Source: Mesorhizobium sp. NFR06
GTDB lineage: Bacteria > Pseudomonadota > Alphaproteobacteria > Rhizobiales > Rhizobiaceae
Reading direction: 5' to 3'
Length of the DNA: 64,000 bases
Assembly: GCF_900115245.1 (NCBI RefSeq)
Contig: NZ_FOVT01000001.1
Span: forward strand, 806,001-870,000
Below, piece after piece: positions 20,733-62,311 of this stretch (its first letter is position 1; each line of letters starts with the position of its first letter). The translations under genes were made by a program, and so were the position numbers. The notes below the pieces were generated by a model. The model worked only from the letters and a program-made list of their open reading frames with translations, searched no databases and had not been told where the DNA came from.

Positions 20733-20769
20733 GCTGCCACTCTCTGCACTGCCATCCCTTGTCTCGCCG

Positions 20770-21222: not shown

Positions 21223-21226
21223 GTCC

Positions 21227-25583: not shown

Positions 25584-25584
25584 C

Positions 25585-26800: not shown

Positions 26801-26850
26801 TGTCTTTCTCCACCGCTTTCAAACGAAACAAGACGACTATGCTTGCGATT

Positions 26851-28356: not shown

Positions 28357-28359
28357 GAC

Positions 28360-28896: not shown

Positions 28897-28901
28897 GCTC
28901 G

Positions 28902-30077: not shown

Positions 30078-30413
30078 ACCAACCCCCAGCCAGCGGCCCT
30101 GAGACCTCCATGTGACGTTACGTTATCACCGGCCTCACGCAACAACAATTGAGCACCTGCGCAAAAACTAACGAAAGCTGAACGCGCCCCGTTTTTCACT
30201 CGGCGCAACCCATCGCGCGATTGGTGGACCCGGTATGTGAAATGGCTCGCATAGTCCGGGCCGCAATCCGGTGTTTGTTACAGCGAGTTTGCAAGGCTTG
30301 TGTAACCGGGAGGTGCCGCCCGGATAAATTCAAACGCCCTATCCGCCACACCGCTTTGTCAAGCGGCCGCTTATATGGCAGGGTACAGTCGACAGGTTGC
30401 GGGAGCACGTTCG
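30078..30413. promoter_or_regulatory. Divergent promoter region between tssA and clpV
   Basis: These 336 bases must drive the main T6SS operon leftward and clpV rightward. The sequence is more AT-rich than its flanks in the middle. A short hairpin-capable stretch CCGGGAGGTGCCGCCCGG lies near 30307-30324. No clear sigma-54 -24/-12 element was found by eye. GGGAG before the ATG at 30414 is the clpV ribosome-binding site. Confidence 0.5.
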
Positions 30414-33254: not shown

Positions 33255-33741
33255 AGCTTTATCGAGCTTCACCGTGCGTGCGTTCGCGCCGGACCCGCAT
33301 CGGAGATTTTCGATCTGCGCACGGTGACGGCCAGTGTGGTCTGGCAGGTGAGGGTGGAGCGCAATGGCTTCCCGCCGTTGGAACTGCGCATATTCCAGTT
33401 GCGCCGCAACGGGAGCGGCCCGGCACTCGGGCGGCTCGAGCCGCCACGCGCCGGGCCTGACCGGTGGGGGCTCGGAACAAAAAACATGGCACCGGCTGAA
33501 GCGAGTAATATCAGTTCTTGCTCATTTTTCCGCCATGCGAACGAAGGATGCGAAAGGCTTCGGCAAGAAACGTCCGAACGGCCCACGCCTCGGCGCTTTT
33601 GCAGACGAGGCATCCGCCGCATGGGCGGGCACTCTCATGGCGTTCGAGCCGGACCATTTGCACGCCGGTTGGCGCTCATAAGACGCTGAACCGAGTACCG
33701 TTGGGCAGGCCCGAAGGCGCGCATTGCATCCAAGGACTGCC
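33255..33741. other. Intergenic region after clpV, no supported gene
   Basis: This 487-base gap lies between clpV and the convergent HlyD gene. Several overlapping short frames exist (the longest about 120 codons), none with a recognisable motif or a good ribosome-binding site. A 48-codon frame at 33535-33681 has GC-rich third positions but cannot be called a gene on this evidence. It separates the T6SS locus from the type I secretion genes. Confidence 0.5.
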
Positions 33742-39781: not shown

Positions 39782-40990
39782 ATGAAGCCGCACCTGGTCT
39801 GCGTCGGCGGCGAGGATCACGCGCTAAGAATGCCATTTCTCATGGAGGTGCGCGACAGGGGCTTTCAGGTCACTGCCGTTTCGACTTGCGACGGCGCCTC
39901 ATTCCTGAGACATGGGATCGCACACAGGCGCTATGGGTTCGACCGCTTCAGCAGCGGCAGCGGACAAGCAGGCGCGGTCAGGACGCTTCGCAAATTGATA
40001 GCGGAGTTGCGTCCGGACATTGTGCAGAGTTTCGATACCAAGCCGAACCTGTTGACCCCACTCGCGGCACGAGGACATGTGCCCGTTGTCCGCACGATCA
40101 ACGGATTGGGCTGGACCTTTTCGTCGCTTGCGCCGCGCGCTCTGGCGCTTCGGCCGATCTTCTGCGGCTTGCAGTTGCTGGCGTCCTTTTGGACCGCCGC
40201 GACGGTCTTCCAAAACCGTGACGATCAGACCTTCTTCGAGAGATATCGGCTGCTCGGATATAGCGACAATCGCCTCATCGCCGGTTCCGGCATCGACGTC
40301 GCCACATTCGCGGCCGCAACGCACCTTGGGCCGACACCCACGAGGATGCGCCAGGAATTCGGGCTTCAATCGGCTGAAGTCGTGATGTTTGTCGGCCGGC
40401 TGACTCGTCAAAAAGGCGTTCCGACGCTCCTCAAGGCCGTGCCAAAAGTCCTCGCCAGAAGGCCGAATGCGCGCTTTGTGCTCATCGGGCCTTGGGATTC
40501 CGAGGGACCGTTCGCCGTCGACGAATCGGAACTTCGACGATTTGCCGCCAATGTAGTCGTTTTGGGCAAACGCCAGGACGTTCCCGCGCTTCTGGGCATG
40601 GCTGACGTATTCGCCTTTCCGACCGAATATCGCGAGGGAATTCCGCGCGTATTGCTGGAGGCCGGACTCGCGGGTCTGCCCATCGTAACCTCACGGATGC
40701 CAGGCTGCACCGACGTCGTCCAGGATGGGTGGAACGGCTACCTGGTTGCGCCGCGAGACCCCGACGCACTGGCGGATCGCATCATCGAGCTGCTTTCGGA
40801 TCGCCGGCTCGCCAGGACCATGGGTGGCCGTACCGCCGCGCTTGTAAGAGAGCGTTTTGCCCTCCCGGCGGTCGTTGACCAGTATTGCGACCTTTACCGG
40901 AGCGTCCTGGTGGCTCAGGCCAGAGGCGGCCTTGCACACGCAACCGCGGGCCTTGTCGCCAAGCGTCGTTTCGACGAGGTGCGCCGATGA
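39782..40990 (+). CDS. GT4-family glycosyltransferase, polysaccharide synthesis
   Basis: The 402-residue GT-B fold protein has the C-terminal GT4 pattern: VVMFVGRLTRQKGVPTLLKA, ADVFAFPTEYREGIPRVLLEAGLAGLPIVTSRMPGC (E-x7-E motif at about 292-300), and NGYLVAPRDPDALA. The N-terminal half (ADIVQSFDTKPNLLTP-type; TINGLGWTF) resembles WfgS/PglA-type transferases. It likely adds one sugar to a lipid-linked repeat unit at the cytoplasmic face. It is the first gene of the operon and overlaps the next as ATGA. Confidence 0.88.
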   Translation: MKPHLVCVGGEDHALRMPFLMEVRDRGFQVTAVSTCDGASFLRHGIAHRRYGFDRFSSGSGQAGAVRTLRKLIAELRPDIVQSFDTKPNLLTPLAARGHVPVVRTINGLGWTFSSLAPRALALRPIFCGLQLLASFWTAATVFQNRDDQTFFERYRLLGYSDNRLIAGSGIDVATFAAATHLGPTPTRMRQEFGLQSAEVVMFVGRLTRQKGVPTLLKAVPKVLARRPNARFVLIGPWDSEGPFAVDESELRRFAANVVVLGKRQDVPALLGMADVFAFPTEYREGIPRVLLEAGLAGLPIVTSRMPGCTDVVQDGWNGYLVAPRDPDALADRIIELLSDRRLARTMGGRTAALVRERFALPAVVDQYCDLYRSVLVAQARGGLAHATAGLVAKRRFDEVRR

Positions 40991-42249
40991 TCAGGGAGGC
41001 GTTGCTTGCCGCAGGCGTAGCCTTGTCCTTCGCCTCGCAGATATCCGTGCCGGGCCTGTCGTTCGGGTACGGCGAGATTTTCCTCGTGCTTTGGATCATG
41101 CTGTCGGTCAGCCGGATATTGGCGGGCGGCCGGATCGAGGTGACACCGGCCTTTTTTCAACTGGCGAGTTTCTGGCTGCTTTTGTCGCTGACTTTGGCGG
41201 TGGGCACCGTTGTCGGGTATTTTACGACCGTGCTCTATGTCACCGGGCTGTCGCACGACACGATGGCCTACGGGCTTCTCGCGGGCGTCACCTGCCTTGC
41301 AACGTTGGAGCCCAATGCCGAGCTTAGTCTGCGGCGCAGCGCCTGGTGGGTGATCGCGATCGCCTTCGGCGCCCTTGCGATACAGATCGGCCTTGCCTGG
41401 GGTTGGATCCATCAGCCGGGAATCGATCCATGGTACTGGGACCGGTTGCGCGGCTGGTCCGAAAACCCGAACCAACTCGCACTTTATTGTGCGGTCTTTG
41501 GTCCATTGGCGGTGCACCTTGCAGTCACCACCAACAGCCGGTGGGCTCAGTTCCTCGCGTTCTCCACCCTTATCCCGATCGTTTATGTCGGACGGCTGAC
41601 CAAAAGCGATACATACCTCTACACGACCATTCTGAGCGGTCTCGTTTTTCTGGGGCTACGATTGAGGGCGTGGTTCCTTTCCGGCGACAACAGGGCGGGC
41701 CTTGCCCGGCAAATCGCGCTTTTGCTGATGATCGGCGCAGTCCCGCTCGCGGCCGCGGCGGCGCCGTACGCGATTACCGAGGAGAGCAGCGTGGCGAAAT
41801 TTGCCAAGAGCCTGACAAAGGACGGAGGCGGCGAGGCGACGGCCGAGACTTTCGAACTCAGGGTCTTTTTGTGGAACGAGGCGATTGAGAAGGGATTGCA
41901 ATCCGGCTCGCTCGGCCTTGGTCCCGGTCCGCACCTTGAACGCCCGCCGATCGCAGACAGGCAGTTTCTCGAGCGCCCGTTCGAAGCTCACAACACCATG
42001 CTTGATCTCTACCTTCAGGGCGGGCTGGTAGCGGCCCTTGCCTTGGTTTGGCTCGTCGGATCGGCCGCCATGTCGGTTTGGCGCAGCCGATTCGATGCCC
42101 TGCTGGTGCTTCTCGCTTCGGTGGTCGTCTTCAGCATGCCGCATCTGATCATCCGCCATCCAATCGTCTGGTTCGCGCTGACATTCTGCCTTGTTGCGGG
42201 AACGCCCCACAGGCTGCATCAGCGGCTGCCGTCCATGAGGGTTGCGTGA
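40987..42249 (+). CDS. O-antigen polymerase/ligase-like membrane protein (Wzy-type)
   Basis: The 420-residue protein is made mostly of hydrophobic helices (about ten) with a large polar loop around residues 270-340 containing FELRVFLWNEAIEKGLQSGSLGLGPGPHL and an H-N-T-M-L-D motif, as in the Wzy_C/O-antigen ligase superfamily. It should polymerise or transfer repeat units at the periplasmic face. It overlaps the upstream GT stop by four bases and the downstream asnB start by one base. Polymerase versus ligase cannot be decided from sequence; position in a Wzx/Wzy cluster favours Wzy. Confidence 0.82.
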   Translation: MIREALLAAGVALSFASQISVPGLSFGYGEIFLVLWIMLSVSRILAGGRIEVTPAFFQLASFWLLLSLTLAVGTVVGYFTTVLYVTGLSHDTMAYGLLAGVTCLATLEPNAELSLRRSAWWVIAIAFGALAIQIGLAWGWIHQPGIDPWYWDRLRGWSENPNQLALYCAVFGPLAVHLAVTTNSRWAQFLAFSTLIPIVYVGRLTKSDTYLYTTILSGLVFLGLRLRAWFLSGDNRAGLARQIALLLMIGAVPLAAAAAPYAITEESSVAKFAKSLTKDGGGEATAETFELRVFLWNEAIEKGLQSGSLGLGPGPHLERPPIADRQFLERPFEAHNTMLDLYLQGGLVAALALVWLVGSAAMSVWRSRFDALLVLLASVVVFSMPHLIIRHPIVWFALTFCLVAGTPHRLHQRLPSMRVA

Positions 42250-44237
42250 TGTGTGGGATTGCCGGAATTCTTCTCGCGCCCAACGCGACGGATCCGAAGT
42301 CGCTCGAGGCCATAGGGCGCATGACGGCGTCGCTTCGACACCGCGGGCCTGACGGCGAAGGCCTCTGGGTCGATCGTGACGCCGGGATTGCCCTGGGCCA
42401 CCGGCGGCTGGCCATCGTCGACCTGTCTAGCGCAGGGCGTCAGCCCATGCGTTCCGCGAGCGGCCGGTACGTGATCACCTTCAACGGCGAGATCTATAAT
42501 TTTCGCGACCTGCGGCGCGAACTCGAAGGGGCGGGGCGACAGTTTCACGGCACCGGCGACACGGAAGTGATGCTGGCTGCCATCGAGAGTTGGGGTCTTG
42601 AGGCCGCCGTCAAGCGTTTTGCGGGCATGTTCGCGTTTGCGTTGTGGGATCTGGAGACCAGGACCCTTCATCTTGCCCGGGATCGAATGGGCAAAAAGCC
42701 GCTTTACGTGGCATTTGCCGGACACGCCCTGTTTTTTGCTTCGGAACTGAAGGCAATCCGGTGCTTTCCGTTCTTCTCTCCCGAGCTCGATCTCGATGCC
42801 GCCGGGGCGATGCTCTCGAAGGGCTGGGTGCCGGATGACAGATGTATCTGGCAGGACGTGTTCAAGCTGCCCCCCGGTTCCCTGCTCTCGATTGCGGCCA
42901 CGGATCTCGCGCAGGCAGGCAGTGCGGCCGCGCTTTCCCAGCGTGTCGTCCACTGGTGGTCGCTGGCCGAAGTTGCCGCGAGAGGCCGCGAGGGACCGGT
43001 CGTTGGCAGCGACGACGATCTCATCAATAGGCTCGACGATCTGCTTCGCCTGGCGGTTCGCGAACGTATGATCGCCGATGTGCCTTTGGGCAGTTTTCTG
43101 TCCGGTGGGGTCGACAGTTCCACCGTCGTGGCGCTGATGCAGGCTCAATCCAGAAGTCCGGTACGCACTTTCACAATCGCGTTCGCGGAGGGCGGCTTTG
43201 ACGAGAGCCGCTATGCGGCCGAAGTGGCGCGACATCTCGGCACCGATCACACCGAGCTTCGCCTTTCGCCCCACGCCGCGCGCGACGTCATCCCCGAGTT
43301 GCCGGGCATATGGGACGAGCCGTTCGCCGACGAATCCCAGATACCTACTCTGCTGGTGGCGCGGCTTGCGCGCCAGCATGTCACGGTCGCTCTGACGGGC
43401 GACGGCGGCGATGAGTGCTTCGCCGGCTATGGCCGCCACTTCATGGCGAACCGGCTGAAGCGTCAACAAAGCCTTCCCCTGGCGCTGCGGCGAACGGCAG
43501 CCGCGGGTATAGGCCTGCTGGCTCGCATAGCGCGCGAGGATCTCCTGCACAGGCTCCCTCTCGGGGCAAATGTGCATCACATGCTGCGCAGCGACCGGCT
43601 CAATCGCTTCTCCGGCTTGCTCGGCGCGAGGCATGAAGACGAATTATTCCAGCGGCTGGTGACGTCCCCCACCGCGAGCCTCACGCGTCAAAGCCTGCCC
43701 GCGTCAATCGGCAGCGCACCGAAACTCGACGGACTGCTGTCACGAGTTCTCTATGACGACATGGCCGGCTATTTGCCCGGCGACATACTGGTGAAGCTGG
43801 ACCGCTCGACCATGGCCAACGGGCTTGAAGGACGATGTCCCCTGCTTGACCATCGGGTCGTCGAATTCGCCTGGCGCCTTCCGTCCGACGCAAAGGTGCG
43901 CGACGGCAGAGGCAAGTGGATACTTCGAAGCCTGTTGCGTCGGTATCTTCCGGAAAAATTGATCGACCGGCCGAAGCAGGGCTTCGACGTTCCAATCGCC
44001 GCATGGCTGAGGGGTCCGTTGCGCAGTTGGGCGGCCGATCTTCTCACCGACATCCGGCGCGACGACGCCGACGTGCTGGATAGCGCCAAGGTGGACGGCT
44101 GCTGGCGCGATCACATGCGAGGGCAGGACCGCTCGCGCGAATTGTGGTCAGCGTTGATGTTTCAGGCCTGGCGCAACGAGGCAAGGCAAGCGCCGCGCGC
44201 GACCCCGTCGCGTGAGTTCGACATGGCAGGAGTGTGA
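42249..44237 (+). CDS. asnB: AsnB-type glutamine amidotransferase (asparagine synthase family)
   Basis: The 662-residue protein starts MCGIAGILLAP, so Cys2 is the glutaminase nucleophile. It has the class-II glutaminase domain (HRGPDGEG, GHRRLAIVDLS, FNGEIYNFRDL, DTEVMLAA) and a synthetase domain with the ATP pyrophosphatase loop SGGVDSS and LTGDGGDECFAGY. In polysaccharide clusters, homologues amidate uronic-acid sugars or other acidic groups rather than making asparagine. Start and stop overlap both neighbours (TGATG upstream), so it is coupled to the polymerase. The substrate is unknown. Confidence 0.9.
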   Translation: MCGIAGILLAPNATDPKSLEAIGRMTASLRHRGPDGEGLWVDRDAGIALGHRRLAIVDLSSAGRQPMRSASGRYVITFNGEIYNFRDLRRELEGAGRQFHGTGDTEVMLAAIESWGLEAAVKRFAGMFAFALWDLETRTLHLARDRMGKKPLYVAFAGHALFFASELKAIRCFPFFSPELDLDAAGAMLSKGWVPDDRCIWQDVFKLPPGSLLSIAATDLAQAGSAAALSQRVVHWWSLAEVAARGREGPVVGSDDDLINRLDDLLRLAVRERMIADVPLGSFLSGGVDSSTVVALMQAQSRSPVRTFTIAFAEGGFDESRYAAEVARHLGTDHTELRLSPHAARDVIPELPGIWDEPFADESQIPTLLVARLARQHVTVALTGDGGDECFAGYGRHFMANRLKRQQSLPLALRRTAAAGIGLLARIAREDLLHRLPLGANVHHMLRSDRLNRFSGLLGARHEDELFQRLVTSPTASLTRQSLPASIGSAPKLDGLLSRVLYDDMAGYLPGDILVKLDRSTMANGLEGRCPLLDHRVVEFAWRLPSDAKVRDGRGKWILRSLLRRYLPEKLIDRPKQGFDVPIAAWLRGPLRSWAADLLTDIRRDDADVLDSAKVDGCWRDHMRGQDRSRELWSALMFQAWRNEARQAPRATPSREFDMAGV

Positions 44238-44239
44238 AA

Positions 44240-46441
44240 ATGGCAGGTTCCGCCGTCAGCCGCATCAAACTTCCGCGAGCCGGCTCTCAGGCCGTCCCGA
44301 CGGTTATCGAACCCAGGGAACGCATTCGGCCGCGGCGCGAATACGCCGAACCGCCGACCGCCACGCACGATCTGATGGCAATCCTTGCAAGAAGAAGGTG
44401 GTTGATCCTTGCCTTTGCTGTTCTGGGTGGGATCCTCGCGGCAGTTGTGGGTGTTGCCCGTCCCGTGATGTACGAGGCCACCAGCCAGCTGATAATCGAC
44501 CCTCCGGCACGCAGTTCGCTTGCTCCAGGCGGGTCTTCCGCCCAGGACCTTATCGATTCCAGCATTGATGACCACATCACCATGCTTTCGTCACAGGGCC
44601 ATCTGCGCCGTGTCGCGACGGCGCTGCACGACATGGAGCGTGCCACGCCAGCGCAAGGCGCGTCTAAAGCCGAAACATCCACGCCTGGCTCGGCTCCTGC
44701 ATCGACGAGGTCTGCCGCCGGGATCATCGAGCGACTTTGGCCGCAAAGCGCCGAGACGGCCGATCCCGACCTCAGGTTGCTGAGGAATAGAATAAGAATT
44801 GGGCAGGAACTGCGATCGAGGGTTATTTCGGTCGCTTTTGCGGATGAAGATCCGGTGCGCGCCGCCATGGTGGCTAACACCTTCTCGCAAGTCTATATCG
44901 ATGAGCTGGCAAAAAGGAGGCGGGCCGAAGACAGGCTGGAACTCACCGCCGTGACCACCAGTCTGCCGGCCGTGCAAAGCGATCTCGTTGCCGCGACCAA
45001 TCGACTGGAGACGTACCGGCTAAGCCATGGGGCCGTCGATCAAGGCTCGGCGGATAGCGCGGCCAGGGAACAGTCCGACCTTAGCCAGCAAATATCGATG
45101 TCCAAGGCTGATCTCGCAGCGATGGAAGCGCGCCTTCAACATATTCAGGACCTTCGCAAACAGGGTGCCGCGGTCGCCTCGCTGGCCGAAGCCATGGGCG
45201 CACCGGAGCTGGCTGACCTTGCGGCTCGCCAGGCAAAGGCGCCTGCGGACAAGGACCTCGGCCTCGCGATCGAGAGCGCGATCCAGCAGGGTCTCGCTCG
45301 CGTCGAGGCGGAGGTCAACACTTATCGGGCCCAGCTCGGCGCGCTGGAAGATCGCAAGAATGTTCTCGATGCGGTTGTCGCCGACACCGCCAGTCGGCTT
45401 TCCGGGTTGCGCGCGCTCGAGCCCCAGGTCAGCCTGCTCACCCAAAGATACAACGAGCTGCTGGGCCGACAGCAGGATCTGATGCGGCGCATTGATTCCC
45501 CCTCGGCAGGGGTCTCGATCCTTTCCCCGGCATGGCCGCCGGCCAAACCGCAGACCTTGCCGCCGATTTTCCTGGTTCCGCCGGGAATGATTGCCTTCTC
45601 AGTCCTTGGCGCGATCTTCGTGTTGATCCGCAATCGATTCAATCGCACGCTGCGTGCTGAGGCTGAGGCCGGGGCAGCGCTTAGGGTTCCCTGCATGGGC
45701 CTCATTCCCGATCCCGGCAAGCTGCACATCAAGCATCTGCGGGACCTGGTTCTGGGCCAGCCCAAATCCGCTTACAGTCGTGCCCTGACGTCGCTTTTGG
45801 TCGCGGCGTCGCCAAATCAGGCCAGGACGCGTTCCCCGCACACCATCCTTATCACATCCAGCCTGCGTGATGATGGCGCGGATGAACTTGCATGGGGCTT
45901 GGCATTCGCTGCCACCCGGCTCGGCGGCCCAATTCTTCTGATCGATCTCGATCGCACGCATCACCAACTCACGCAGGATTACCTGCATCAATGCAGCGGG
46001 CCAAGGGCGCGCCGTTCGTTTGGCGAGTTTATCAGCAACCGCTGTACCTTGGACGATGCGGTCGCCGGTGTGCCTGGCATCGGCATCGACCTGATGACCG
46101 TTGCACCGACCGACGACTTGCTCGGACTTCTTGCGCGCGCGGACAGTCTCGAATGCAAGCATGAGCTGCAGGCCGAATACAGCCTGATCATCATAAACGG
46201 GCCGTCCGGACTTGCCGGGCCGGAAGCAAGGTTCCTGACGAGCTGGGCGGATGCGATCCTTCTCGCCATTCGCTGGGATAGCACGCCGCGCGATATCGCT
46301 CGCGGGGTCTTGGACCTGCTCCAAAGGGACGGCGCGATTTCGGTTCCGACAGCGAGCGTGCTTACGCGAGTCAACCTCAAACGATATGCCAAATACAGGT
46401 TCGGCGACGGCGCGGATCTGCTCCTTGCGCGGATCCCATGA
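44240..46441 (+). CDS. Polysaccharide co-polymerase (Wzz/ExoP-like) with degenerate tyrosine-kinase domain
   Basis: The 733-residue protein has the Wzz layout: a transmembrane helix near residues 55-75, a periplasmic coiled coil to about 430, a Pro-rich second helix (AWPPAKPQTLPPIFLVPPGMIAF), and a cytoplasmic BY-kinase-like domain. In that domain the Walker A position reads SSLRDDGADELA (about 540-550) instead of the usual S-x-PGEGKST, so the ATP-binding Lys is lost; Walker A' LLIDLDRTH is retained in outline, and there is no Tyr-rich tail. It likely regulates chain length or export without kinase activity. AGGAG seven bases before the ATG at 44240 supports the start; a GTG two codons earlier is less likely. 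Confidence 0.85.
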   Translation: MAGSAVSRIKLPRAGSQAVPTVIEPRERIRPRREYAEPPTATHDLMAILARRRWLILAFAVLGGILAAVVGVARPVMYEATSQLIIDPPARSSLAPGGSSAQDLIDSSIDDHITMLSSQGHLRRVATALHDMERATPAQGASKAETSTPGSAPASTRSAAGIIERLWPQSAETADPDLRLLRNRIRIGQELRSRVISVAFADEDPVRAAMVANTFSQVYIDELAKRRRAEDRLELTAVTTSLPAVQSDLVAATNRLETYRLSHGAVDQGSADSAAREQSDLSQQISMSKADLAAMEARLQHIQDLRKQGAAVASLAEAMGAPELADLAARQAKAPADKDLGLAIESAIQQGLARVEAEVNTYRAQLGALEDRKNVLDAVVADTASRLSGLRALEPQVSLLTQRYNELLGRQQDLMRRIDSPSAGVSILSPAWPPAKPQTLPPIFLVPPGMIAFSVLGAIFVLIRNRFNRTLRAEAEAGAALRVPCMGLIPDPGKLHIKHLRDLVLGQPKSAYSRALTSLLVAASPNQARTRSPHTILITSSLRDDGADELAWGLAFAATRLGGPILLIDLDRTHHQLTQDYLHQCSGPRARRSFGEFISNRCTLDDAVAGVPGIGIDLMTVAPTDDLLGLLARADSLECKHELQAEYSLIIINGPSGLAGPEARFLTSWADAILLAIRWDSTPRDIARGVLDLLQRDGAISVPTASVLTRVNLKRYAKYRFGDGADLLLARIP

Positions 46442-46476: not shown

Positions 46477-47208
46477 TTGATCGTCGAGCTCTTCGGACCG
46501 CCCGGTTCAGGCAAAACAACCCTCGCCCACGCGCTGGTCAGCCGTTTGCGCGAGGACGGATACCGTGCCGATGTTATCCGCAGTTACCGGCCAGCGGTAA
46601 GGTCCGGAGCACTCGATCTGGGCGTCTTCCTGTTCATGACGAGGATCGTCTCGGCAACGGTTTCTACGGCTAAAGTGATTTTCTTCCCGCCAAACGGCAG
46701 GTCAAATCTATCGAAGTCTCTGTTGATGCTCAGGGCAATGCCCCCGAAAAAACCAATCTGGCGTGCCCGAATTTGGCAGCACATACTGAAGCTTTCGCAC
46801 GCTTGGGATCGAGCTAGGCTGGACCAGGATATTCTGATTTTCGACGAGGGTTATGTTCAGGCGGTTGGGTCTCTGGCGTTGCTCAATGGGAATGCGGACA
46901 AAGCCGTTCTCGGAACGATGCTGAGCAATGTACCGGCCGCGGATCTGACGATTAGAGTTACGGCGCCGCGGGCCGCGGTTGCAGCCCGTCTTCGCCGGCG
47001 CATGGAAAGCGAGCCTCCGGCGGAGCGGCTCTTCGAGGCCGATTTCGACGTCAATATGCGTTCCCTCAGTGTCTTCAAAACCATAAGCGACATACTCGCC
47101 ATCTCGGGGCGGGACGTTATTTGTGCCAGGACTTCAAGCCAGCGCTCGACGATGATGAGCACTCAAGACGTTGAGCGGGCGATCATCGCCAAATACATTC
47201 ATTCTTGA
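46477..47208 (+). CDS. P-loop kinase-like protein in the polysaccharide operon
   Basis: The 243-residue protein opens with a perfect P-loop MIVELFGPPGSGKTTLAHAL. A DEGYVQ motif (about residues 128-133) may be Walker B, and a C-terminal RLRRRMESEPPAER segment resembles the LID of thymidylate- or adenylylsulfate-type kinases. The start is TTG, with no ATG nearby. Such kinases occur in capsule and O-antigen clusters, where they may phosphorylate a sugar or precursor. The acceptor cannot be told. GC content is somewhat lower than in the neighbouring genes. Confidence 0.65.
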   Translation: MIVELFGPPGSGKTTLAHALVSRLREDGYRADVIRSYRPAVRSGALDLGVFLFMTRIVSATVSTAKVIFFPPNGRSNLSKSLLMLRAMPPKKPIWRARIWQHILKLSHAWDRARLDQDILIFDEGYVQAVGSLALLNGNADKAVLGTMLSNVPAADLTIRVTAPRAAVAARLRRRMESEPPAERLFEADFDVNMRSLSVFKTISDILAISGRDVICARTSSQRSTMMSTQDVERAIIAKYIHS

Positions 47209-47435: not shown

Positions 47436-47515
47436 TCAGGTGAATGATGGCGAGGTGCTGCAGCCGCCATACGTTCCCATTCCAATCGTCAGCCGCTTCT
47501 CGGAATCGCGAGCCA

Positions 47516-48874
47516 ATGTCCTACAGCGACTTTCTGAGATCCAGGGAGGGGCGGATTACAGCAAGCCCAATCGGCAAAATCGTCCGCGCGGCGGGCGGCG
47601 TTTCAGCAATGGCGATTGCGGGGCAACTCACTCTGGTCGCCACCATCCCGATATTGGCCCGCCTCTATTCTCCTGCGGATTTCGGCGTCTTCACGATCTA
47701 TCTCTCAACGGTAAACATACTCGGTGCGGTCGCGGCGCTGCGTTTCGAGCCCTCGCTCTACGGCGTCAAGGATACCGAACAGACCTATGTCACCGTCAAG
47801 CTCATTCTATTGGCCGTATTGACGACCGGCGCCCTGACCTTTGCTGCCGGGCAGGTGCTGTTGAGCTTTGCGCCCGTACACCTCAGAGCTCTGGTCTGGC
47901 TCGTTCCGATTGGGATGAGCGGCGCGGCTCTCGTTGAAGCCATGAATTGTTGGGCCTTGCGTGCGGGCCTGCTGCGCGATTTCGCCCTTGGCCGTCTGAT
48001 CCTGCCGGCCACCATGGCGTTGCTGCAGTTGGTTTTTGGCCTCGCCCGCCTCGGTGGCGAAGCCATGGTGCATGCGCACGTCATCAGCCAGTTCATCTTT
48101 CTCGCTTTTCTGGGCTTTCGGATTCTGACGTGGGATGACGTGCGCGGCATTTACCGAGCGCCATGGAGAAGCGCCTTTGACAAGGCCGTCAGGGAATACA
48201 AGTTCCCATTGTTCGATATCCCCGCGACGCTCGGCAGCTATGCCATCAACAATCTTCCGGCGATCCTCGTCGGTTCGTTGTTCGGCGCGGCTTTCGCCGG
48301 CTACCTCGGCGTCGCGACGCGGCTGGTCACAGGGCCCATCGTGCTCATTGCCACTCCGCTAAGCAACGTGTTCGTCGCCGAGGCGAACAAGAACAGCAAT
48401 CGTGCCCATTTGCTCGGCATCGCGCGCGGCCTCGTGATCCTTGCCGCCGGCCTTACCGCGCTGCCAATATTGGCGCTTGGGCTGGCAGCTCCGTATCTGG
48501 TCGTCCCGCTTCTGGGAGAGGCCTGGATCCCGACGGCCCAAATCATGACGGCCTTGGCGTTCATGGGCGCCGTGCAAGCATTGTCGACACCGCTCGGCGA
48601 GGTTCCCGCCCTGCTGCGGCGGCAGGAGGTGCGGCTGGTCGTCGACGCCGCGCGGATGGTGCTTGTCTTCGGTCCGCTGCTCGCCGGCGCCAAAGCGGGT
48701 TGGGAGCCTATCGACGTCATTTATCTCATGGCGGCTGGCGGGACGGTCGGATTCGCCATCAAAACGGCAGCCTCACTGTATCTTTTGAAGCGGGACACCA
48801 ATGCGGTGCAGATACCGCTGCCAAGCCCTTATGCCATCGCGAGGAAAGAGCACCATGAAGCTCCAATTGAGTAG
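47516..48874 (+). CDS. Wzx-type polysaccharide flippase
   Basis: The 452-residue protein has around twelve hydrophobic helices and the MOP/Wzx opening VRAAGGVSAMAIAGQLTLVATIPILARLYSPADFGVF, a common Wzx N-terminus. It should flip undecaprenyl-linked repeat units across the inner membrane for Wzy. I start at MSYSDF; an upstream in-frame ATG at 47444 adds 24 residues that look noncoding. Its end overlaps the GT2 gene by 20 bases. Confidence 0.88.
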   Translation: MSYSDFLRSREGRITASPIGKIVRAAGGVSAMAIAGQLTLVATIPILARLYSPADFGVFTIYLSTVNILGAVAALRFEPSLYGVKDTEQTYVTVKLILLAVLTTGALTFAAGQVLLSFAPVHLRALVWLVPIGMSGAALVEAMNCWALRAGLLRDFALGRLILPATMALLQLVFGLARLGGEAMVHAHVISQFIFLAFLGFRILTWDDVRGIYRAPWRSAFDKAVREYKFPLFDIPATLGSYAINNLPAILVGSLFGAAFAGYLGVATRLVTGPIVLIATPLSNVFVAEANKNSNRAHLLGIARGLVILAAGLTALPILALGLAAPYLVVPLLGEAWIPTAQIMTALAFMGAVQALSTPLGEVPALLRRQEVRLVVDAARMVLVFGPLLAGAKAGWEPIDVIYLMAAGGTVGFAIKTAASLYLLKRDTNAVQIPLPSPYAIARKEHHEAPIE

Positions 48875-49910
48875 CGACGCGCGCCCTGGAAGAGGGTTCG
48901 TGGCACCCGAGGAAGGTGACACTCATTCTGCCGAGGGTTCGACGATGCGACCTTTCATCTCCGTTGCCGTCCCGACATATCGCCGACCGGATACCATCCG
49001 GCGCACCATCGACAGCATCGTCGGCCAGGACTTTTCCAACTGGGAACTTGTTGTCAGCGACGACGAGGGCCGAGCGGGTGCGAGCTGGCCCATCCTGGAG
49101 GAATACGCGCGAAGCGACCCACGCATCCGAATTGTCGAAAACCACCGGGGCAGAGGGCAGGTGGAAAATACCAACAACGCCATGCTTGCCTGCAAGGGCA
49201 AGTGGATCAAGTTGCTGCACGACGACGATTGGCTGACCTCCGGTGCCCTGAAGAGGTTCGCCGAAATCTCGATGAAATATCCGTCGGCGGCGTTCATGAC
49301 CTGCGCAGCGCATGTCGTGGAGGAAGACCGGGTGGTAACACGCTCGGATCCGCCCGAGCATAACCGGGTTTCGCTCTATTCGAGCCAACAGTGCCTGACG
49401 GACCTGTATCTCGTGCGAGTGACCAGGAGCCTTGGCATCATACCTTCGACGCTGTTGATCAACGCCGCCGTCATTCATGCCGGGTGCCAGATGCGCGCCC
49501 ATAAATCCATTCCGGCCGGCGTCGATCAATTGTTCTTTGTTGATCTAGCCCGCCACGGCGAGATGGTTGCCATCAACGAAGGTCTGATCTTTTACGATGC
49601 CACGCATCATCCCAGCATAACGACGACGAAGAGCTACGAGGACGTGGACGAGGTCACCCTCGCCGTCAAACAGCTTAACTGGGATCTTATCGAGGATAGA
49701 AAAGGTCTTCCGAGTCCGGAGAGCCTTTTGCGTGCGCTGCAGGTCGCTCGTATCCCTTCCAGGTTCCGACATCAGTCGTGGCGAACGACAATGCGAGACG
49801 CGGTTCAGATCTTCCGGCCGTCAGTCATGAAGATCGCGAACCAGTACCTCCTGGAATACCTGTTGAGGATTCGCCCGAAACTTGGCGCAGTGCGGACCCG
49901 CAAACGCTGA
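48855..49910 (+). CDS. GT2-family glycosyltransferase
   Basis: The 351-residue protein shows the GT-A fold: ISVAVPTYRRPDTIRRTIDSIVGQDF, ELVVSDDEG, and KLLHDDDWL with the DxD-type acidic cluster (about residues 117-121). It adds a sugar from an NDP donor to the lipid-linked intermediate. It starts inside the flippase gene, with GAGGAAAG upstream; a later ATG at 48945, just before the core domain, is an alternative. It is the last gene of the first polysaccharide block. Confidence 0.85.
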   Translation: MKLQLSSDARPGRGFVAPEEGDTHSAEGSTMRPFISVAVPTYRRPDTIRRTIDSIVGQDFSNWELVVSDDEGRAGASWPILEEYARSDPRIRIVENHRGRGQVENTNNAMLACKGKWIKLLHDDDWLTSGALKRFAEISMKYPSAAFMTCAAHVVEEDRVVTRSDPPEHNRVSLYSSQQCLTDLYLVRVTRSLGIIPSTLLINAAVIHAGCQMRAHKSIPAGVDQLFFVDLARHGEMVAINEGLIFYDATHHPSITTTKSYEDVDEVTLAVKQLNWDLIEDRKGLPSPESLLRALQVARIPSRFRHQSWRTTMRDAVQIFRPSVMKIANQYLLEYLLRIRPKLGAVRTRKR

Positions 49911-50254
49911 CCGTTGCTCTTCTAAGGCCGGTGGCACTGCGATTTGTGTGGCGTTCGCACGACGGCACAATGCCCGGCAGCCAGCGCGAGCCGTTGGTGG
50001 TTCACTGTTTCACGGAAACGGCGAACCACTCGATCTCATTGTGTTGATGCAATTCGTGACGGAAAACCGTTTCGCTCTTTCCTGCAAGCCTCGTCGGCCT
50101 CAACGAGTCCAATTAGTCTAGGGCCGACTGACTTCAACGAGCGCGAGATGACCCACTTCGGTTGGCTTCGCCACGCAGTGGTGATGGTGTTCTTGAGTAG
50201 CTTGCTCAGGCGCATGCCACTATGCTCGGACTTTATGGTCAGGCGGGAACTCGT
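49911..50254. other. Intergenic region with one inverted repeat unit
   Basis: This stretch of about 340 bases between the GT2 and cyclase genes carries an inverted B unit (50001-50084). The rest has no supported gene. Base composition turns more AT-rich toward the cyclase gene. Confidence 0.5.
50001..50084 (-). repeat. Intergenic repeat, B unit, inverted copy
   Basis: On the minus strand it reads CAGGAAAGAGCGAAACGG, GGTTTTCCGTCACGAATTG and ends CCGTTTCCGTGAAACAGTG, matching the units at 39244-39343 and 54966-55064 in order. Confidence 0.75.
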
Positions 50255-51583
50255 ATGGCACGCCCGAACGTCATACTTATTGCGACGCTTCAACTATCGA
50301 AACTGCTCCGAACGAGTTTCGTCAGACTTGCCGGTCTATTACAAAATATGATCGCGTTCGGAACTACCGGCAAAGATCCAGTATCCAGTCGCCACCTTAG
50401 GGCCCTAAATGTATTCGTCACGCTTGTGGTATTAAGTACAATATTCGTGATATGTCAGTCTTTGTTACGCCTTGGATTCGCTAAACATCACGCCTTGATT
50501 TTATGGGCATCATTTATCCTGTTCATGTGGGCGCTTACTCCGCTTTCAAATCGGTTTGGTGAAGTTGTGGCGACAACATATTTTGTTGGCGTATCTTGGA
50601 TTGGTTTTGTTGTTCAAGGATACATCGCCGGCTCTTCACTTGGCAGTCATTATTTCTTATTAGCGGCCCCCGCGGTATCGATTTCTCTCGGATCCAGGCG
50701 AATGTTGATCGCAATATCACTTCTGTTGTGGGCGATTTTCGGATTCTATATAGTGGAATTCAGGTTTCCAAGCTCATCGTTCGAGCCTGTTCCAGGAGAT
50801 TTTGCCAAATTAAATCTACAGTATTGTTTATTTGGCTCATCTATATTGGTTTTTTGGTCGATATACTATGCTCTATATGTAGGTGACCGCGCTGAAGCGG
50901 CGCTTGAGCGTGAATACGAGCGGTCAGAACACCTATTGCTTAATCTCATGCCTGCATCGATTGCTGCAAGATTGAAAGAAAAACCAAAAGAAACTATCGC
51001 TGATCACTTCGACGAGGTGGCTATTCTTTTTGCAGACGTAGTTAATTTTACGCCTCGCGCCAGCAATTTACCCGCGGTAGAGGTTGTGCGGTTCCTCAAT
51101 CGAGTCTTTACCAGATTTGACCGCTTGGCAGCGATCCATTGCTTGGAGAAGATCAAAACGGTTGGAGACGCCTACATGGTGGCGGGTGGCATGCCTGACC
51201 GCCATCAAGGGTACGCTCGACGGGTAGCCGAGTTGGCACTCGACATGCTGGACGCGACCCGCGACCTGTCGGAAGAGATAGGAGAGGAAATAGCCATACG
51301 GATAGGAATCCACGTAGGACCAGCAGTCGCAGGAGTGATCGGGACACAGAAGCTATTTTACGATGTGTGGGGAGATACCGTGAATACCGCATCTCGGATG
51401 GAGTCACTTGGTAGCGCCGGCCGGATTCAGGTGACCGAGACAGTTATGCAGATTCTGGCTGACGAGTACGTATTTGAGAGACGCGCCCGAGTTCATGTCA
51501 AGGGGAAGGGTGAGATGGAACTGTACTATCTGCTCGCCCGCAAAGCCGTGGGCGAGCGCGATCAGCCTATCCCCGATCCTTGA
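50255..51583 (+). CDS. Membrane-bound class III adenylate cyclase
   Basis: The 442-residue protein has an N-terminal membrane domain with about five to six helices (residues 45-205), a short HAMP-like or coiled linker, and a C-terminal class III cyclase domain: ILFADVVNFT with the metal-binding Asp, EKIKTVGDAYMVAGG with substrate Lys, and VWGDTVNTASRMES with the transition-state Asn and Arg. The Lys/Asp pair indicates ATP rather than GTP, making cAMP. The membrane domain resembles MASE-type sensors of rhizobial cyclases. I start at 50255, behind AGGCGGGA; 50222 is the alternative. Base composition is clearly AT-richer than in the flanking genes, suggesting recent acquisition. Confidence 0.9.
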   Translation: MARPNVILIATLQLSKLLRTSFVRLAGLLQNMIAFGTTGKDPVSSRHLRALNVFVTLVVLSTIFVICQSLLRLGFAKHHALILWASFILFMWALTPLSNRFGEVVATTYFVGVSWIGFVVQGYIAGSSLGSHYFLLAAPAVSISLGSRRMLIAISLLLWAIFGFYIVEFRFPSSSFEPVPGDFAKLNLQYCLFGSSILVFWSIYYALYVGDRAEAALEREYERSEHLLLNLMPASIAARLKEKPKETIADHFDEVAILFADVVNFTPRASNLPAVEVVRFLNRVFTRFDRLAAIHCLEKIKTVGDAYMVAGGMPDRHQGYARRVAELALDMLDATRDLSEEIGEEIAIRIGIHVGPAVAGVIGTQKLFYDVWGDTVNTASRMESLGSAGRIQVTETVMQILADEYVFERRARVHVKGKGEMELYYLLARKAVGERDQPIPDP

Positions 51584-56934: not shown

Positions 56935-58071
56935 ATGCTCTTGGTTAGTGCCCCCATGTTGGGTGTGCCGGAGAAGGCCGCCTTGTCGAAAGTGATCGAC
57001 AGCGGCTGGTTGACGATGGGCGAGCGGGTCAGGGCATTCGAAGAGGCATTTGCCGCCATGCACGGTGCTGACGATTGCGTCGCCGTCAACTCCTGCACCG
57101 CAGCCCTTCACCTGATTCTGTATGGACTCGGGATCGGGCCCGGCGACGAGGTTCTGGTGCCTTCCTTGACGTTTGTGGCGACCGTCAACGCGGTCTTGTA
57201 CGTTGGTGCCAAGCCGGTCTTCGTCGATATAGAATCCGATGACGTGCCGCTGATGTCGGTCGAAGACGCCGAAGCGAAGTGCACCCCCCGCACCAGAGCT
57301 GTGATCCTGGTCCATTTTGCGGGCTATCTTGCAAACAAGGAGCAGTGGCAGACATTCGCAAGCGTGCGAGGGCTCTACATCATCGAGGACGCGGCACATG
57401 CTCCCGGCCTGAAGGAGGTTGGGACCTTTGGCGCCGGAGCGGCCTTCAGCTTCTACGGCAACAAGAACATGACCACCGCCGAAGGCGGCGTGGTCATTAC
57501 GCGCGACCCCGACTTGCGCGAGAAGATCCGCCAGGCGCGTGGCCACGGCATGACCACCGGCACGCGTCAGAGACTGAACAGCCGCACCCCGCAATATGAC
57601 GTGACCATGCTGGGCTTCAACTATCGCATGGATGAAATGCGGGCTGCCATCGGCCTGGTTCAGCTTCGCAATCTGCAGGAATGGAATGAGGTCAGACGCA
57701 TACTTGTCGCGCTCTATCGACGCCTCATCGCCATGCGCTGTCCGGCCATCTCCCTGCCATTTGCCGAAACGCGCCCCTCCGCATATCACATCATGCCGAT
57801 CCTCTTGCCGCGCTACGTCAGCAGGCAAGACGTCATCGATGAGTTGCGGGCGCAGGGCATACAGACGACAATTCACTATCCGCCCGTGCATCATATGACG
57901 CTCTACCGGGAACTCTTCCCCGGGGTTCACCTGCCGCGCACGGAGGATTTCGCCGACCGTGAGCTGACCATTCCACTCCATCCCCAGATAACGTCGCCCG
58001 TGGCTGAGGCCGTGGTTGATGCTCTGGCGTCCGCCCTCAGCATCGGCGCTCGGGCAGGGACAGCGGCATGA
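56935..58071 (+). CDS. DegT/DnrJ/EryC1/StrS-family sugar aminotransferase
   Basis: The 378-residue PLP enzyme has NSCTAALHLILYGLGIGPGDEV, IEDAAHAPG and the PLP-lysine motif FYGNKNMTTAEGG. It transfers an amino group to a 4-keto (or 3-keto) NDP-sugar. The LegB-like dehydratase two genes downstream would supply a 4-keto-6-deoxy sugar, giving a 4-amino-4,6-dideoxy product. GGGAGG before the ATG at 56935 is a good ribosome-binding site. The stop overlaps the sugar-transferase start as ATGA. Confidence 0.92.
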   Translation: MLLVSAPMLGVPEKAALSKVIDSGWLTMGERVRAFEEAFAAMHGADDCVAVNSCTAALHLILYGLGIGPGDEVLVPSLTFVATVNAVLYVGAKPVFVDIESDDVPLMSVEDAEAKCTPRTRAVILVHFAGYLANKEQWQTFASVRGLYIIEDAAHAPGLKEVGTFGAGAAFSFYGNKNMTTAEGGVVITRDPDLREKIRQARGHGMTTGTRQRLNSRTPQYDVTMLGFNYRMDEMRAAIGLVQLRNLQEWNEVRRILVALYRRLIAMRCPAISLPFAETRPSAYHIMPILLPRYVSRQDVIDELRAQGIQTTIHYPPVHHMTLYRELFPGVHLPRTEDFADRELTIPLHPQITSPVAEAVVDALASALSIGARAGTAA

Positions 58072-58742
58072 ACGCTTTCGACATGCCCATTCGCAAGCTT
58101 GCAATGAGCTGTGTAAGCCACGGACGCGGCCGACGCGCCATGGACATCATTGCCGCATCCGCGGCGCTGATCGTCCTGTCGCCGCTCATGCTGTTTGTTG
58201 CCGTGGCGCTGCTGATCGAAGGTGGTCGCCCAATACTTTTTGTCCAGCCGCGCATAGGCGCCGGCGGCCAGCTTTTCCGTATGTACAAGTTCCGGAAGTT
58301 CGATCCGCGATGCGATGCGGGCGGCCTTGCGCTGACCCTTGCCAATGACACCCGGATGACGGCCGTGGGCAGGCTTCTCGCTTCCAGCAAATTGGATGAA
58401 CTGCCGCAACTGTGGAACGTCCTCAAAGGCGAAATGGCCATCGTCGGTCCGCGCCCCGAGAGCCTATCTTTCGCCGAATGTTTCAGAGACGGTTATGAGG
58501 CTGTTTTGCAGTACAAGCCGGGCTTGTTCGGCCCTGCTCAGATCATGTTCCGCCATGAAGCGCTTTTCTATCCCAGGGACGTCGAGCCGACCGTTTTCTA
58601 CAAGGAAGTTCTGTTTCCGGCAAAGGCGAGGATGGATCTTTCTTACTATGGTCGCCGCACCATCGTCTCGGACGCGATACTCATCATTCGAGGTGTTCTA
58701 ATCGTTCTTGGCATGACCGCGGATCGTCCAGTCGGCACATGA
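58068..58742 (+). CDS. Initiating sugar-phosphate transferase (PglC/WcaJ/ExoY family)
   Basis: The 224-residue protein has one N-terminal membrane segment (about 28-52), then the bacterial sugar transferase core: FRMYKFRKFD, KLDELPQLWNVLKGEMAIVGPRPE and KPGLFGPAQI. These enzymes attach the first sugar-phosphate to undecaprenyl phosphate. Its short length and single membrane segment resemble the PglC type rather than WcaJ, which has extra helices. Next to aminotransferase and LegB-like genes it may use an amino-dideoxy sugar. Confidence 0.9.
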   Translation: MNAFDMPIRKLAMSCVSHGRGRRAMDIIAASAALIVLSPLMLFVAVALLIEGGRPILFVQPRIGAGGQLFRMYKFRKFDPRCDAGGLALTLANDTRMTAVGRLLASSKLDELPQLWNVLKGEMAIVGPRPESLSFAECFRDGYEAVLQYKPGLFGPAQIMFRHEALFYPRDVEPTVFYKEVLFPAKARMDLSYYGRRTIVSDAILIIRGVLIVLGMTADRPVGT

Positions 58743-59803: not shown

Positions 59804-61065
59804 AGCTCTCCGCGCTTGCCGCATTGTTGCTGGTCTGTATTGCCGCATTTCTCAGTCTGCGGCCGGCCGGCGGTCAGGGGAGCAACGCGTCCACCGGCTT
59901 CGTCGCGCCGATTGCGATGGAGCTGCCGGCGTATCTTCACCCCGCGACGGACCCCGCGTTCGGCACAAGCATCGTTCGCGTCACCAAGCCCGGGGCGCTT
60001 GGAAATGGTGTGGTTTGCGGACCCAAATATTGCAGCCATCGCTATTCGAGCGCGCAAGCCTGGAACGCGGACCAGACGTTGCTGCTCCTCGACAATGGCT
60101 GCAATGGAATGTGCTTTCTCGATGGGCACACCTATGTGGCGCTGTTTTGGCGCCGCAGAGGGGGGGAGTGCGAATGGCATCCTCGAAACGCCGAATTGAT
60201 GATCTGTGTTCAAGATCGGGCGGTCTCGACCTGGGCGCCGCGGACGAACCACGAAGACGTTCTTTTCACATCGCCGGATTATCACGATCTGCAATTCGGA
60301 CCTTCGAAGGGCAATCCAAGCCGGGACGGAAGTCGCATCGCGGTCCGCGCAATCCGCAAGGACGGCGCGGACGTCGTTTTTGCCTATGATCTGAACCGGC
60401 GGTCGAAATTCCCGGACATCGACCTTTCTCAGGTCCCCGGGACGGCGAGTTCCTGCACGATCTCCCCGCTCGGAACGTATATCCTGTGTTTCCAAAACCG
60501 CGCCGACGGTACGGAGCAGCGGGCCATCTTCACGGTTGACGGCACCTTGCGCCAGAGATGGACGGATCATCACCGGCCGGGCCATGGCGATCTGACGGTC
60601 GACGCTGACGGCAGCGAAGTCTATGTCGGCATCAGTAAATCCGCTCCCGACAAGTTCCAGATAATCAAGCGCAGGCTGTCGGACGGTAAGGCGACGTCCC
60701 TTACAGCATATGGCCAGGCGGAGCATGCATCGACACGCGCCGTGGCCAGGGGCGATTGGGTCTTCCTGAGCTACGGCGGCAATCCGGACGAGGTATCGGC
60801 CAATCCGGGCTGGGCTCCTTATGCGCGCGAGGTCATCGCTCTTCGCATCGACGGCAGCGGCGCCGTCCGTCGCATCGTGCAGACGCGAAATCCTCCCTCG
60901 GACTACTGGAGCGAGACGCATGCGTCGCCTTCTCCGGATGGCTCCCAGGTGATCTGGTCGAGCAATTGGGGCGTGCCGGGTGGTCCGGTTTACGAGTTCG
61001 TCTCCCGCCTCGACTGGAACGAACAGCAAAATCCGAAGGAGGTTGTCGCCAATGACCAGCATTAG
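59800..61065 (+). CDS. Exported beta-propeller-like protein of unknown function
   Basis: The 421-residue protein has an N-terminal signal peptide (MKLSALAALLLVCIAAFLSL, cleavage near Gly24-Gln26). The remainder has repeating beta-rich blades with SPDG-type turns (GNPSRDGSRIAVRAI, HASPSPDGSQVIWSSNWG), similar to TolB- or oligogalacturonate-lyase-like propellers, and several Cys residues (about 73-130). It is locked between legB (ATGA overlap) and the export gene (14-base overlap), so a role in periplasmic polysaccharide handling or trimming is plausible. No catalytic residues are assigned. Confidence 0.7.
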   Translation: MKLSALAALLLVCIAAFLSLRPAGGQGSNASTGFVAPIAMELPAYLHPATDPAFGTSIVRVTKPGALGNGVVCGPKYCSHRYSSAQAWNADQTLLLLDNGCNGMCFLDGHTYVALFWRRRGGECEWHPRNAELMICVQDRAVSTWAPRTNHEDVLFTSPDYHDLQFGPSKGNPSRDGSRIAVRAIRKDGADVVFAYDLNRRSKFPDIDLSQVPGTASSCTISPLGTYILCFQNRADGTEQRAIFTVDGTLRQRWTDHHRPGHGDLTVDADGSEVYVGISKSAPDKFQIIKRRLSDGKATSLTAYGQAEHASTRAVARGDWVFLSYGGNPDEVSANPGWAPYAREVIALRIDGSGAVRRIVQTRNPPSDYWSETHASPSPDGSQVIWSSNWGVPGGPVYEFVSRLDWNEQQNPKEVVANDQH

Positions 61066-62311
61066 CCGGTTCTTCCTCGCGGTCCTGGCGGTCTTGGGCA
61101 GCGTTCCGATAGCCGCCGCGGCCGATACGTCGGCTTACCGGATTTCGCCGGGCGACACGGTCGAAATCGGAATAACCTCGATTCCCGGCCGGACCGAGCG
61201 AGCCGTTGTCCAGATGGACGGCACGATAGTGCTGCCCGATGCCGGCACGGTCTCGGTCGGCGGTTTGACGGCGCCTGAATTGCAGACGCGCATGCAGACG
61301 ATTTTGCCGACCAAGATCTTTCACATCCGCATGCCTGACGGCCGCGAACAGATGACGGTCGTGAGACCGAGCGACGTGACGGCGGTCATTGCCGAATATC
61401 GTCCTGTCTATGTGACCGGCGATGTGCTTACCCCGGGACAGCAGGCCTATCGTCCGCTCATGACCGTGCGACAGGCGATCGCGGTGGCCGGCGGCTTCAG
61501 CCTTTTGCGGGCGCGGGCCAACCAGGCAGGCCCGGATCCGACGGACCTGCGGCGCGATTATGAGATGATCTGGGGAGAGTATACCGGTGCTTACTTCCAC
61601 AGCGCCCGCCTGCGCGCGGAACTCGACAAACAGGCGAGTTTTGACGCCCAGCCTCCGCAAGGCTCTCCCCTTTCTCCCGCGTTGGCAGCGGGAGTAGCGA
61701 AGGCTGAAGCAGATGCGCTGAAACTCTCCCTCGAGAATTTTCAGCAAGAGCAGAGCTTCGTGGAAAAAGGCGTCAAGGATGCCGCGGCGCAAGTCGAGGC
61801 GCTGTTGAAGCGCGAGCAGGACGAGGCGGCCGGCGTGAAGGCGGACGAGGACGACCTGGAGCAGGTCACCAGGCTGTTCAAAGCCGGCAACCTGACCAAC
61901 AACCGGCTAGCCGATGTCCGGCGCTCTGTCCTGCTTTCGTCCAGCCGGGCGCTGGAAACATCGGTCGAACTCATGAGAACGCGGCGCCAGCAGGAGGATT
62001 TTGCCAGGCAGCTCGAGCGCAACGAGAATCAAAGGCGCATCGGTTTGCTGAACGAGTTGCGGGACACGGAGGTCCGGTTGGCCGACATCAGCGCAAGGCT
62101 TCGCGCCGTCAGCCAGAAGTTGCAGCCCCTGGGTGCAACCGCCGCGCCTTTGTCGATCGCCGGCGAAACCATTAAGGCTCAGATAACAATCGTTCGCAAT
62201 GTCGACGGACAGTGGCGCAAGCAGGCTTCCGACGAGGATGCCGAGGTCGCGCCAGGAGACACGATCGAAGTCAGGTTCAGCAACGAACTAGAGAGCGCGG
62301 CGGCACAATAA
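61052..62311 (+). CDS. Polysaccharide export protein, ExoF/Wza-like
   Basis: The 419-residue protein has a signal peptide (MTSISRFFLAVLAVLGSVPIAAAA), a Poly_export domain (YRISPGDTVEIGITSIPG, TIVLPDAGTVSVGGLT) and an SLBB-like part (PVYVTGDVLTPGQQAYRPLMTVRQAIAVAGGF), then a long coiled coil (about 200-360) and a short second beta domain near the C-terminus. This is close in plan to ExoF of Sinorhizobium. It would form the periplasmic or outer-membrane conduit with the co-polymerase at 44240. No lipobox is seen. It starts inside the propeller gene. Confidence 0.9.
   Translation: MTSISRFFLAVLAVLGSVPIAAAADTSAYRISPGDTVEIGITSIPGRTERAVVQMDGTIVLPDAGTVSVGGLTAPELQTRMQTILPTKIFHIRMPDGREQMTVVRPSDVTAVIAEYRPVYVTGDVLTPGQQAYRPLMTVRQAIAVAGGFSLLRARANQAGPDPTDLRRDYEMIWGEYTGAYFHSARLRAELDKQASFDAQPPQGSPLSPALAAGVAKAEADALKLSLENFQQEQSFVEKGVKDAAAQVEALLKREQDEAAGVKADEDDLEQVTRLFKAGNLTNNRLADVRRSVLLSSSRALETSVELMRTRRQQEDFARQLERNENQRRIGLLNELRDTEVRLADISARLRAVSQKLQPLGATAAPLSIAGETIKAQITIVRNVDGQWRKQASDEDAEVAPGDTIEVRFSNELESAAAQ

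Follow-up and report, generated by a model that had tools for sequence, protein, structure and literature searches.

According to the accepted model, PCP-2 co-polymerases need tyrosine phosphorylation cycles. For Wzc, PMC8285477 describes the phosphorylation cycle as required, with the ring being held by the Tyr tail placed in the active site of the neighbouring subunit. Co-polymerases fused to a pseudokinase are already in print, as represented by PssP2, SMc01795 and Mlr8439. PssP2 was reported in PMC4182512 to be devoid of Walker motifs and of the Y-cluster, and a mutant missing its 153 C-terminal residues was described there to produce more EPS with longer chains. A list of fused PCP-2 pseudokinases, given after Cuthbertson et al. 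in PMC12004946, includes SMc01795, BCETI_6000729, Mlr8439 and VV1_2305, and the same paper indicates that EcpK and HfsB have been proposed as phosphorylation-independent scaffolds.

The Mesorhizobium protein described here lacks the catalytic motifs and the Tyr cluster, as do the proteins of the PssP2/SMc01795/Mlr8439 kind, and Walker A' remains in it.

The co-polymerase and its gene cluster

The window, i.e., the whole stretch of DNA analysed, comprises 64,000 nucleotides of the genome of Mesorhizobium sp. NFR06 (C1:806001-870000), and the window genes mentioned below that have a stated strand are all on the plus strand. The ORF at 44234..46441 starts with GTG, overlaps by 4 bases the stop of the upstream asparagine-synthase-like gene and, based on its translation, encodes a polysaccharide co-polymerase of 735 aa that resembles Wzc/ExoP and carries a fused BY-pseudokinase domain. 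The original prediction concerned the interval 45780-46441, which corresponds to the C-terminal third of this ORF. A Wzz chain-length determinant region was found at residues 46-129 (44369..44620; Pfam Wzz, E=7.5e-7, 29.8 bits for a cut-off of 25.5), showing that the Wzz-type co-polymerase part is present. In the NCBIfam search the protein matched TIGR01005 (exopolysaccharide transport family) with E=7.5e-24, which is far below the cut-off of that family.

The kinase-like domain, taken here as residues 505-735 (45746..46438), was recognised by a profile against the PDB and by Foldseek. The profile of 14 orthologous C-terminal domains matched VpsO (1.5e-16), CapAB (2.1e-12), BceF (5.5e-8) and Wzc (1.6e-6), and the sequence comparison of the co-polymerase with solved structures also led to Wzc, VpsO and CapAB chains. 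When the AlphaFold model of the whole protein was submitted to Foldseek, full-length Wzc ranked first (E=1.5e-17), and the model of the kinase-like domain returned BY-kinases or Wzc in all 50 matches listed. These AF2 models had low confidence (mean pLDDT of 63.4 for the full length and of 55.9 for the domain alone), so that they inform on the fold class only, with any interface or pocket being unreadable. Pfam matched no family on the C-terminal kinase-like domain of the window protein, and among the kinase-like domains of 14 family members CbiA was found, weakly, in 3/14. The profile and Foldseek matches indicate that the tyrosine-kinase shape announced by the original prediction is real and that a co-polymerase and a BY-kinase-homologous C-terminal domain share one chain.

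The gene sits in a Wzx/Wzy-type cluster, in which the flippase, transferases, PGT and OPX were matched and Wzy was assigned by inference. It belongs to a conserved block that starts with a GT4 glycosyltransferase gene (39782..40990; Pfam and synteny), followed by a putative Wzy-like polymerase (40987..42249; so named for its position and hydrophobic look, with no Pfam or NCBIfam match), an asparagine-synthase/amidotransferase-like protein of the EPS cluster (42246..44237; family matches and synteny) and the co-polymerase. This four-gene block was present in 20/20 loci of at least 10 kb, the co-polymerase of one of them (L047) being cut by the locus end. Further genes of the region encode a P-loop NTPase/kinase-like neighbour with the motif GPPGSGKTT, which is not constant among relatives (46477..47208; family search and synteny), a Wzx-type flippase (Polysacc_synt_3, 47513..48874), a GT2 glycosyltransferase (48945..49910) and an initiating sugar-phosphate transferase (Bac_transf, 58068..58742), the latter three by Pfam, and a polysaccharide export (OPX/Wza-like) protein (60980..62311; family matches below cut-off). 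Elsewhere in the window, the starts of the translations inspected by eye suggested a putative type VI secretion cluster (~14500-33300), and a membrane protein at 50222-51583 looked, also by eye, like a putative class III adenylate/guanylate cyclase.

State of the kinase motifs

The Walker A of the window protein reads SSLRDDGADELA, with GADELA at residues 548-553 (nt 45875-45892). In the alignment, the Walker A relic TSSLRDDGADELA covers residues 541-553 (45854..45892), with the Lys replaced by Ala and Asp as the next residue; the GK[ST] that active BY-kinases require is not there, DGADE being found instead. Close orthologs carry DGKTELA and outgroup proteins GEGKT in the same columns, so that the Walker A alignment is unambiguous. 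Chance or misalignment was ruled out, since DGKTE of the orthologs fills these very columns, and the predicted replacement of Walker A by GADELA was hence verified.

The Walker B relic YSLIIINGPSG (residues 649-659, 46178..46210) has Asn in place of the Asp that active BY-kinases need (IIIN). The Walker A' relic ILLIDLDRTHH (residues 567-577, 45932..45964) keeps both Asp (IDLD), a feature of active kinases that the window protein still has and that could provide residual nucleotide or Mg binding. The C-terminus is short (residues 713-735, 46370..46438) and without a Tyr cluster: from residue 713 onward there are 2 Tyr, vs 4 in the matching tail of L005, the canonical ExoP-like protein of the same genome, which bears GEGKST, IVVDLPP and a Tyr tail. 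Across 60 family rows (the truncated L122 being omitted) the tail had 0-2 Tyr; the predicted lack of a tyrosine tail agreed with these counts. With the Walker A Lys, the Walker B Asp and the Tyr cluster all absent, it is well supported, at the level of sequence, that the domain is unable to autophosphorylate.

Distribution of the family and graded loss of motifs

In the genomes sampled, the co-polymerase family is nearly confined to Mesorhizobium. The genus search (E<=1e-60) gave a match in 62/146 genomes; the match of G311 was to an outgroup protein (31%), and 61 genomes remained once it was set aside. The 20 loci obtained in the related-locus search were all labelled Mesorhizobium. Among 247 family-level genomes from 109 genera, in which four candidates were scored per genome, matches at E<=1e-41 were restricted to the genus plus G127 (31%) and G269 (29%).

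The alignment comprised 70 distinct proteins. L002 and L052 (distant paralog) and L028 (a Lys-less fragment) were dropped before tree building, after which 61 rows remained for the family and 6 for the outgroup. All six outgroup rows had Walker A GEGKT and the Walker B Asp, with 2-3 tail Tyr. The Walker B Asp was absent in 61/61 distinct family rows (60 Asn, 1 Ile). The Walker A Lys was retained in 39 of these 61 rows and lost in 22, that of the window included. Lys549 and Thr550 were each invariant in the Lys-keepers (39/39), and the Lys-less rows had A15 G7 at position 549 and T12 N8 D1 S1 at position 550. Regarding Walker A', Asp571 was retained in 22/22 Lys-less rows; the second Asp was Asp in 38/39 Lys-keepers, and the Lys-less rows showed Glu at this place in 20/22 and Asp or Glu in 21/22. 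As to whether related rhizobial copies share the loss, the Walker B loss is common to all 61 distinct rows of the family and the Lys loss to part of them, and the latter is not general among rhizobia. One Lys-keeping ortholog, L122 (G335:C1), gave a match ending ~67 residues short of the usual C-terminus.

The trees agree with the tail having been lost first, Walker B next and Walker A last; their rooting uses long outgroup branches that were flagged by the program. We tentatively propose that, in one orthologous gene and one genus, successive pseudokinase stages can be seen. The outgroup, with Walker A and B intact and a poor Tyr tail, would have been followed by a deep-branching group in which the Walker B Asp is missing and Lys549-Thr550 is kept in 39/39, possibly a nucleotide-gated, ATP-binding scaffold that does not phosphorylate. 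From the latter would derive a nucleotide-free scaffold, of single origin, which was moved by recombination onto another co-polymerase background. As a graded motif-loss series in a co-polymerase family, this is unusually clean, and no earlier description of it was found among the titles and opening lines listed in literature text searches, a scope mostly made up of papers outside subscription.

The genome encodes further co-polymerases. L002 (G000:C13:9795-11792) is a second fused one with a degenerate kinase-like domain, having SREKAQ at Walker A and IIVNAPP at Walker B. A third, L003 (G000:C12:150284-152425, minus strand), is without Walker A. In its family, PPEDKAQRSRVA or nearly so occupies the Walker A place in 24/25 rows examined and the Walker B Asp is retained, the row of L154 being a wrong frame; six of the L003 matches listed carry one in-frame TAG. 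In L004 (G000:C22:76261-77637) a long Pro-rich C-terminal part replaces, by eye, the kinase domain. The presence of the window protein's family in 61/146 genomes, with the Walker B Asp missing from every distinct row, and of the second, Walker A-less family of L003 in 73/144 genus genomes (E<=1e-80) suggests from sequence that Mesorhizobium genomes often encode co-polymerases whose kinase domain is crippled.

Origin of the Lys-less domain

The trees were quick ones, without bootstrap and with long outgroup branches, and the p-values given here are optimistic, since the groups were named after the tree was seen. The tree of the co-polymerase part required a minimum of two Lys changes and rejected a single clade of the 22 Lys-less rows (AU p=0.0081). 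In the tree of the kinase-like part (65 rows, Walker A columns removed, L122 and L129 left out) all 22 Lys-less rows fell in one clade (SH-aLRT 99.9), one change being needed. The kinase-like part rejected the grouping of six Lys-less rows with L101 that is seen in the co-polymerase tree (AU p=0.0001), and holding the other 16 Lys-less rows as one clade was not rejected (p=0.31).

Two genes of the family, L093 and L089, appeared mosaic in identity plots, the breakpoints seeming to lie around residues 280, 400 and 520. They were nearest to L101 at residues 40-279 and 400-519 and nearest to the clade of the window at 280-399. The proximity to L101 ended at ~520, at the start of the kinase-like domain; beyond this point L037 or L011 was mostly the closest among the six rows compared, the Lys-keeper L020 being about equal in 520-579. 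The co-polymerase genes of L044, L095, L097 and L014 are mosaic by tree position.

One clade in the kinase-like region, a split in the co-polymerase region and the mosaics indicate a probable single origin of the Lys-less domain, followed by its spread through recombination. Independent, repeated losses of the Lys were disfavoured, as the kinase-like region needs one change and rejects the co-polymerase-tree grouping, and as mosaics are seen.

Role of the pseudokinase domain

A domain that has lost its catalytic residues and its Tyr tail and is yet conserved is probably a structural scaffold. The gene product would be a co-polymerase of a Wzx/Wzy-type exopolysaccharide pathway, and its cytoplasmic BY-kinase-like domain a pseudokinase in which the ability to phosphorylate tyrosine appears to be gone. 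In the clade of the window, P-loop-type ATP binding is most likely gone as well. The folded domain may have been kept for its packing against neighbouring domains below the membrane, or as a docking site for the polymerase or for glycosyltransferases. In this way it would stabilise the co-polymerase ring in the periplasm, with chain length being set by an assembly and disassembly independent of its own phosphorylation. As the window protein has no Tyr tail, such a ring would need a contact other than the tail of Wzc; Wzc K540M, in which the same Lys is missing, was described to form octamers (PMC8285477). That a fused BY-pseudokinase scaffold supports ring assembly and chain-length control without autophosphorylating is the reading that we favour, with some confidence. 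The motif losses back the part of the original prediction stating that the protein does not autophosphorylate; length control is the best inference, for which PssP2, EcpK and HfsB offer precedents.

The original prediction also offered activation by another protein. In this case the pseudokinase co-polymerase would enter mixed complexes with the canonical ExoP-like BY-kinase, which would phosphorylate it or set its state, the dead subunits tuning an active ring. No BY-kinase was found in the 64-kb window with the TIGR01007 profile, whose six matches in the whole genome all lay outside it, and thus the nearby functional kinase partner named as a result that would go against the prediction did not turn up. 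One match, on the same contig (C1:384090), was over the cut-off and the other five were below it. It corresponds to the one canonical BY-kinase of the genome (GEGKST, IVVDLPP and Tyr tail), the ExoP-like protein encoded at C1:382365-384743, ~0.47 Mb from the co-polymerase gene. An ExoP match (E<=1e-120) was present in 136/144 genus genomes, namely in 61/61 of those with the pseudokinase gene vs 75/83 of those without it (Fisher p=0.02, kinship ignored). Moreover, PssP2 of R. leguminosarum was reported to interact with PssP (PMC4182512). However, nearly all genomes of the genus have ExoP, the 8 exceptions being the small ones (3.3-4.6 Mb), so that this association is weak evidence. The tail Tyr721 is Y in 21/22 Lys-less rows and S or H in 6/38 Lys-keepers, meaning that no acceptor has been kept throughout, and the co-polymerase gene has its own flippase, transferase and export genes nearby. 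A Wzb-type phosphatase was not found in the window either, the three low-molecular-weight phosphatase matches of the genome being all on other contigs. Activation in trans seems to us unlikely, though worth keeping in mind.

If instead the periplasmic part worked alone, as in co-polymerases without a kinase domain, the domain would be a functionless, decaying remnant. The same genome has such a co-polymerase (L004, by eye), the Lys-keeper L122 lacks its last ~67 residues, and the residues at positions 549-550 have drifted among the Lys-less rows. Pairwise dN/dS values (NG86, pairs with dS of 0.15-1.2; for the domain, 109/231 Lys-less pairs and 409/741 Lys-keeper pairs) had medians in the domain of 0.182 for the Lys-less group and of 0.172 for the Lys-keepers, which were not above those of the other regions (0.182-0.205 and 0.203-0.285, respectively), the pairs being non-independent and the pair sets differing between regions. 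In the Lys-less group the domain had the top median dN of the four regions (0.170 vs 0.103-0.144), and its invariant columns amounted to 61/231 vs 153/460 in the co-polymerase part; the corresponding figures for the Lys-keepers were 34/231 and 72/460. None of the 65 genus matches listed had an internal stop, one (G335) being short and another (G014) having its gene split over two contigs. The dead domain is clearly under purifying selection, perhaps slightly relaxed in the Lys-less group. A decaying pseudogene is disfavoured by the dN/dS of ~0.18 and the open frames, though a mild relaxation is hinted at by the dN values and the share of invariant columns, and we consider a functionless remnant improbable.

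The P-loop neighbour (46477-47208) could in principle supply the lost kinase function, as its GPPGSGKTT is intact and lies directly 3' of the co-polymerase gene. Its matches were weak and to nucleotide-kinase/AAA-type families, with none to BY-kinase families in Pfam and NCBIfam. The gene had no match in 5/13 relatives' genomes (4 Lys-less, 1 Lys-keeping) and, in G401, no more than distant ones; in other relatives of both Walker states it is present, in several of them near the locus. Its presence does not track the Lys loss, and we rejected it as a substitute kinase, a role that we find very hard to credit. A slow kinase or ATPase binding ATP non-canonically via Walker A' is similarly implausible, since, despite the conservation of Asp571 and of an acidic second A' position in the Lys-less rows, the window protein misses the P-loop Lys, the following Ser/Thr, the Walker B Asp and the Tyr cluster.

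Comparison with known systems

Judged by its sequence, the window protein would be a conserved co-polymerase incapable of a phosphorylation cycle, and some of its close relatives retain the ATP-binding Lys without the other motifs. What the fold, ATP binding and phosphorylation each contribute would thus be separated within one orthologous set.

Wzc, ExoP, VpsO and CapAB have the same architecture or fold as the window protein, but their Walker motifs are functional and their tail is rich in Tyr, neither of which applies to it. EcpK/EpsV of Myxococcus and HfsB/HfsA of Caulobacter resemble it in that a co-polymerase works with a BY-pseudokinase proposed as a scaffold, yet their pseudokinase is a separate protein, and EcpK is described as missing several structural elements in addition to the three Walker motifs (PMC12004946). 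SMc01795, BCETI_6000729, Mlr8439 and VV1_2305 are described as carrying the co-polymerase and the BY-pseudokinase on one chain. Among them, Mlr8439 comes from Mesorhizobium japonicum and may be a member either of the window protein's family or of a different PCP-2 family present in the genus, e.g., that of L003.

PssP2 of Rhizobium leguminosarum is the nearest tested case. In its published description (PMC4182512), it differs in being 586 aa long, with a shorter periplasmic part and with Walker A' also lost, and in being encoded away from the main EPS cluster. What it has in common with the window protein is a co-polymerase fused to a BY-kinase-like domain, in a protein connected with the chain length of a rhizobial EPS.
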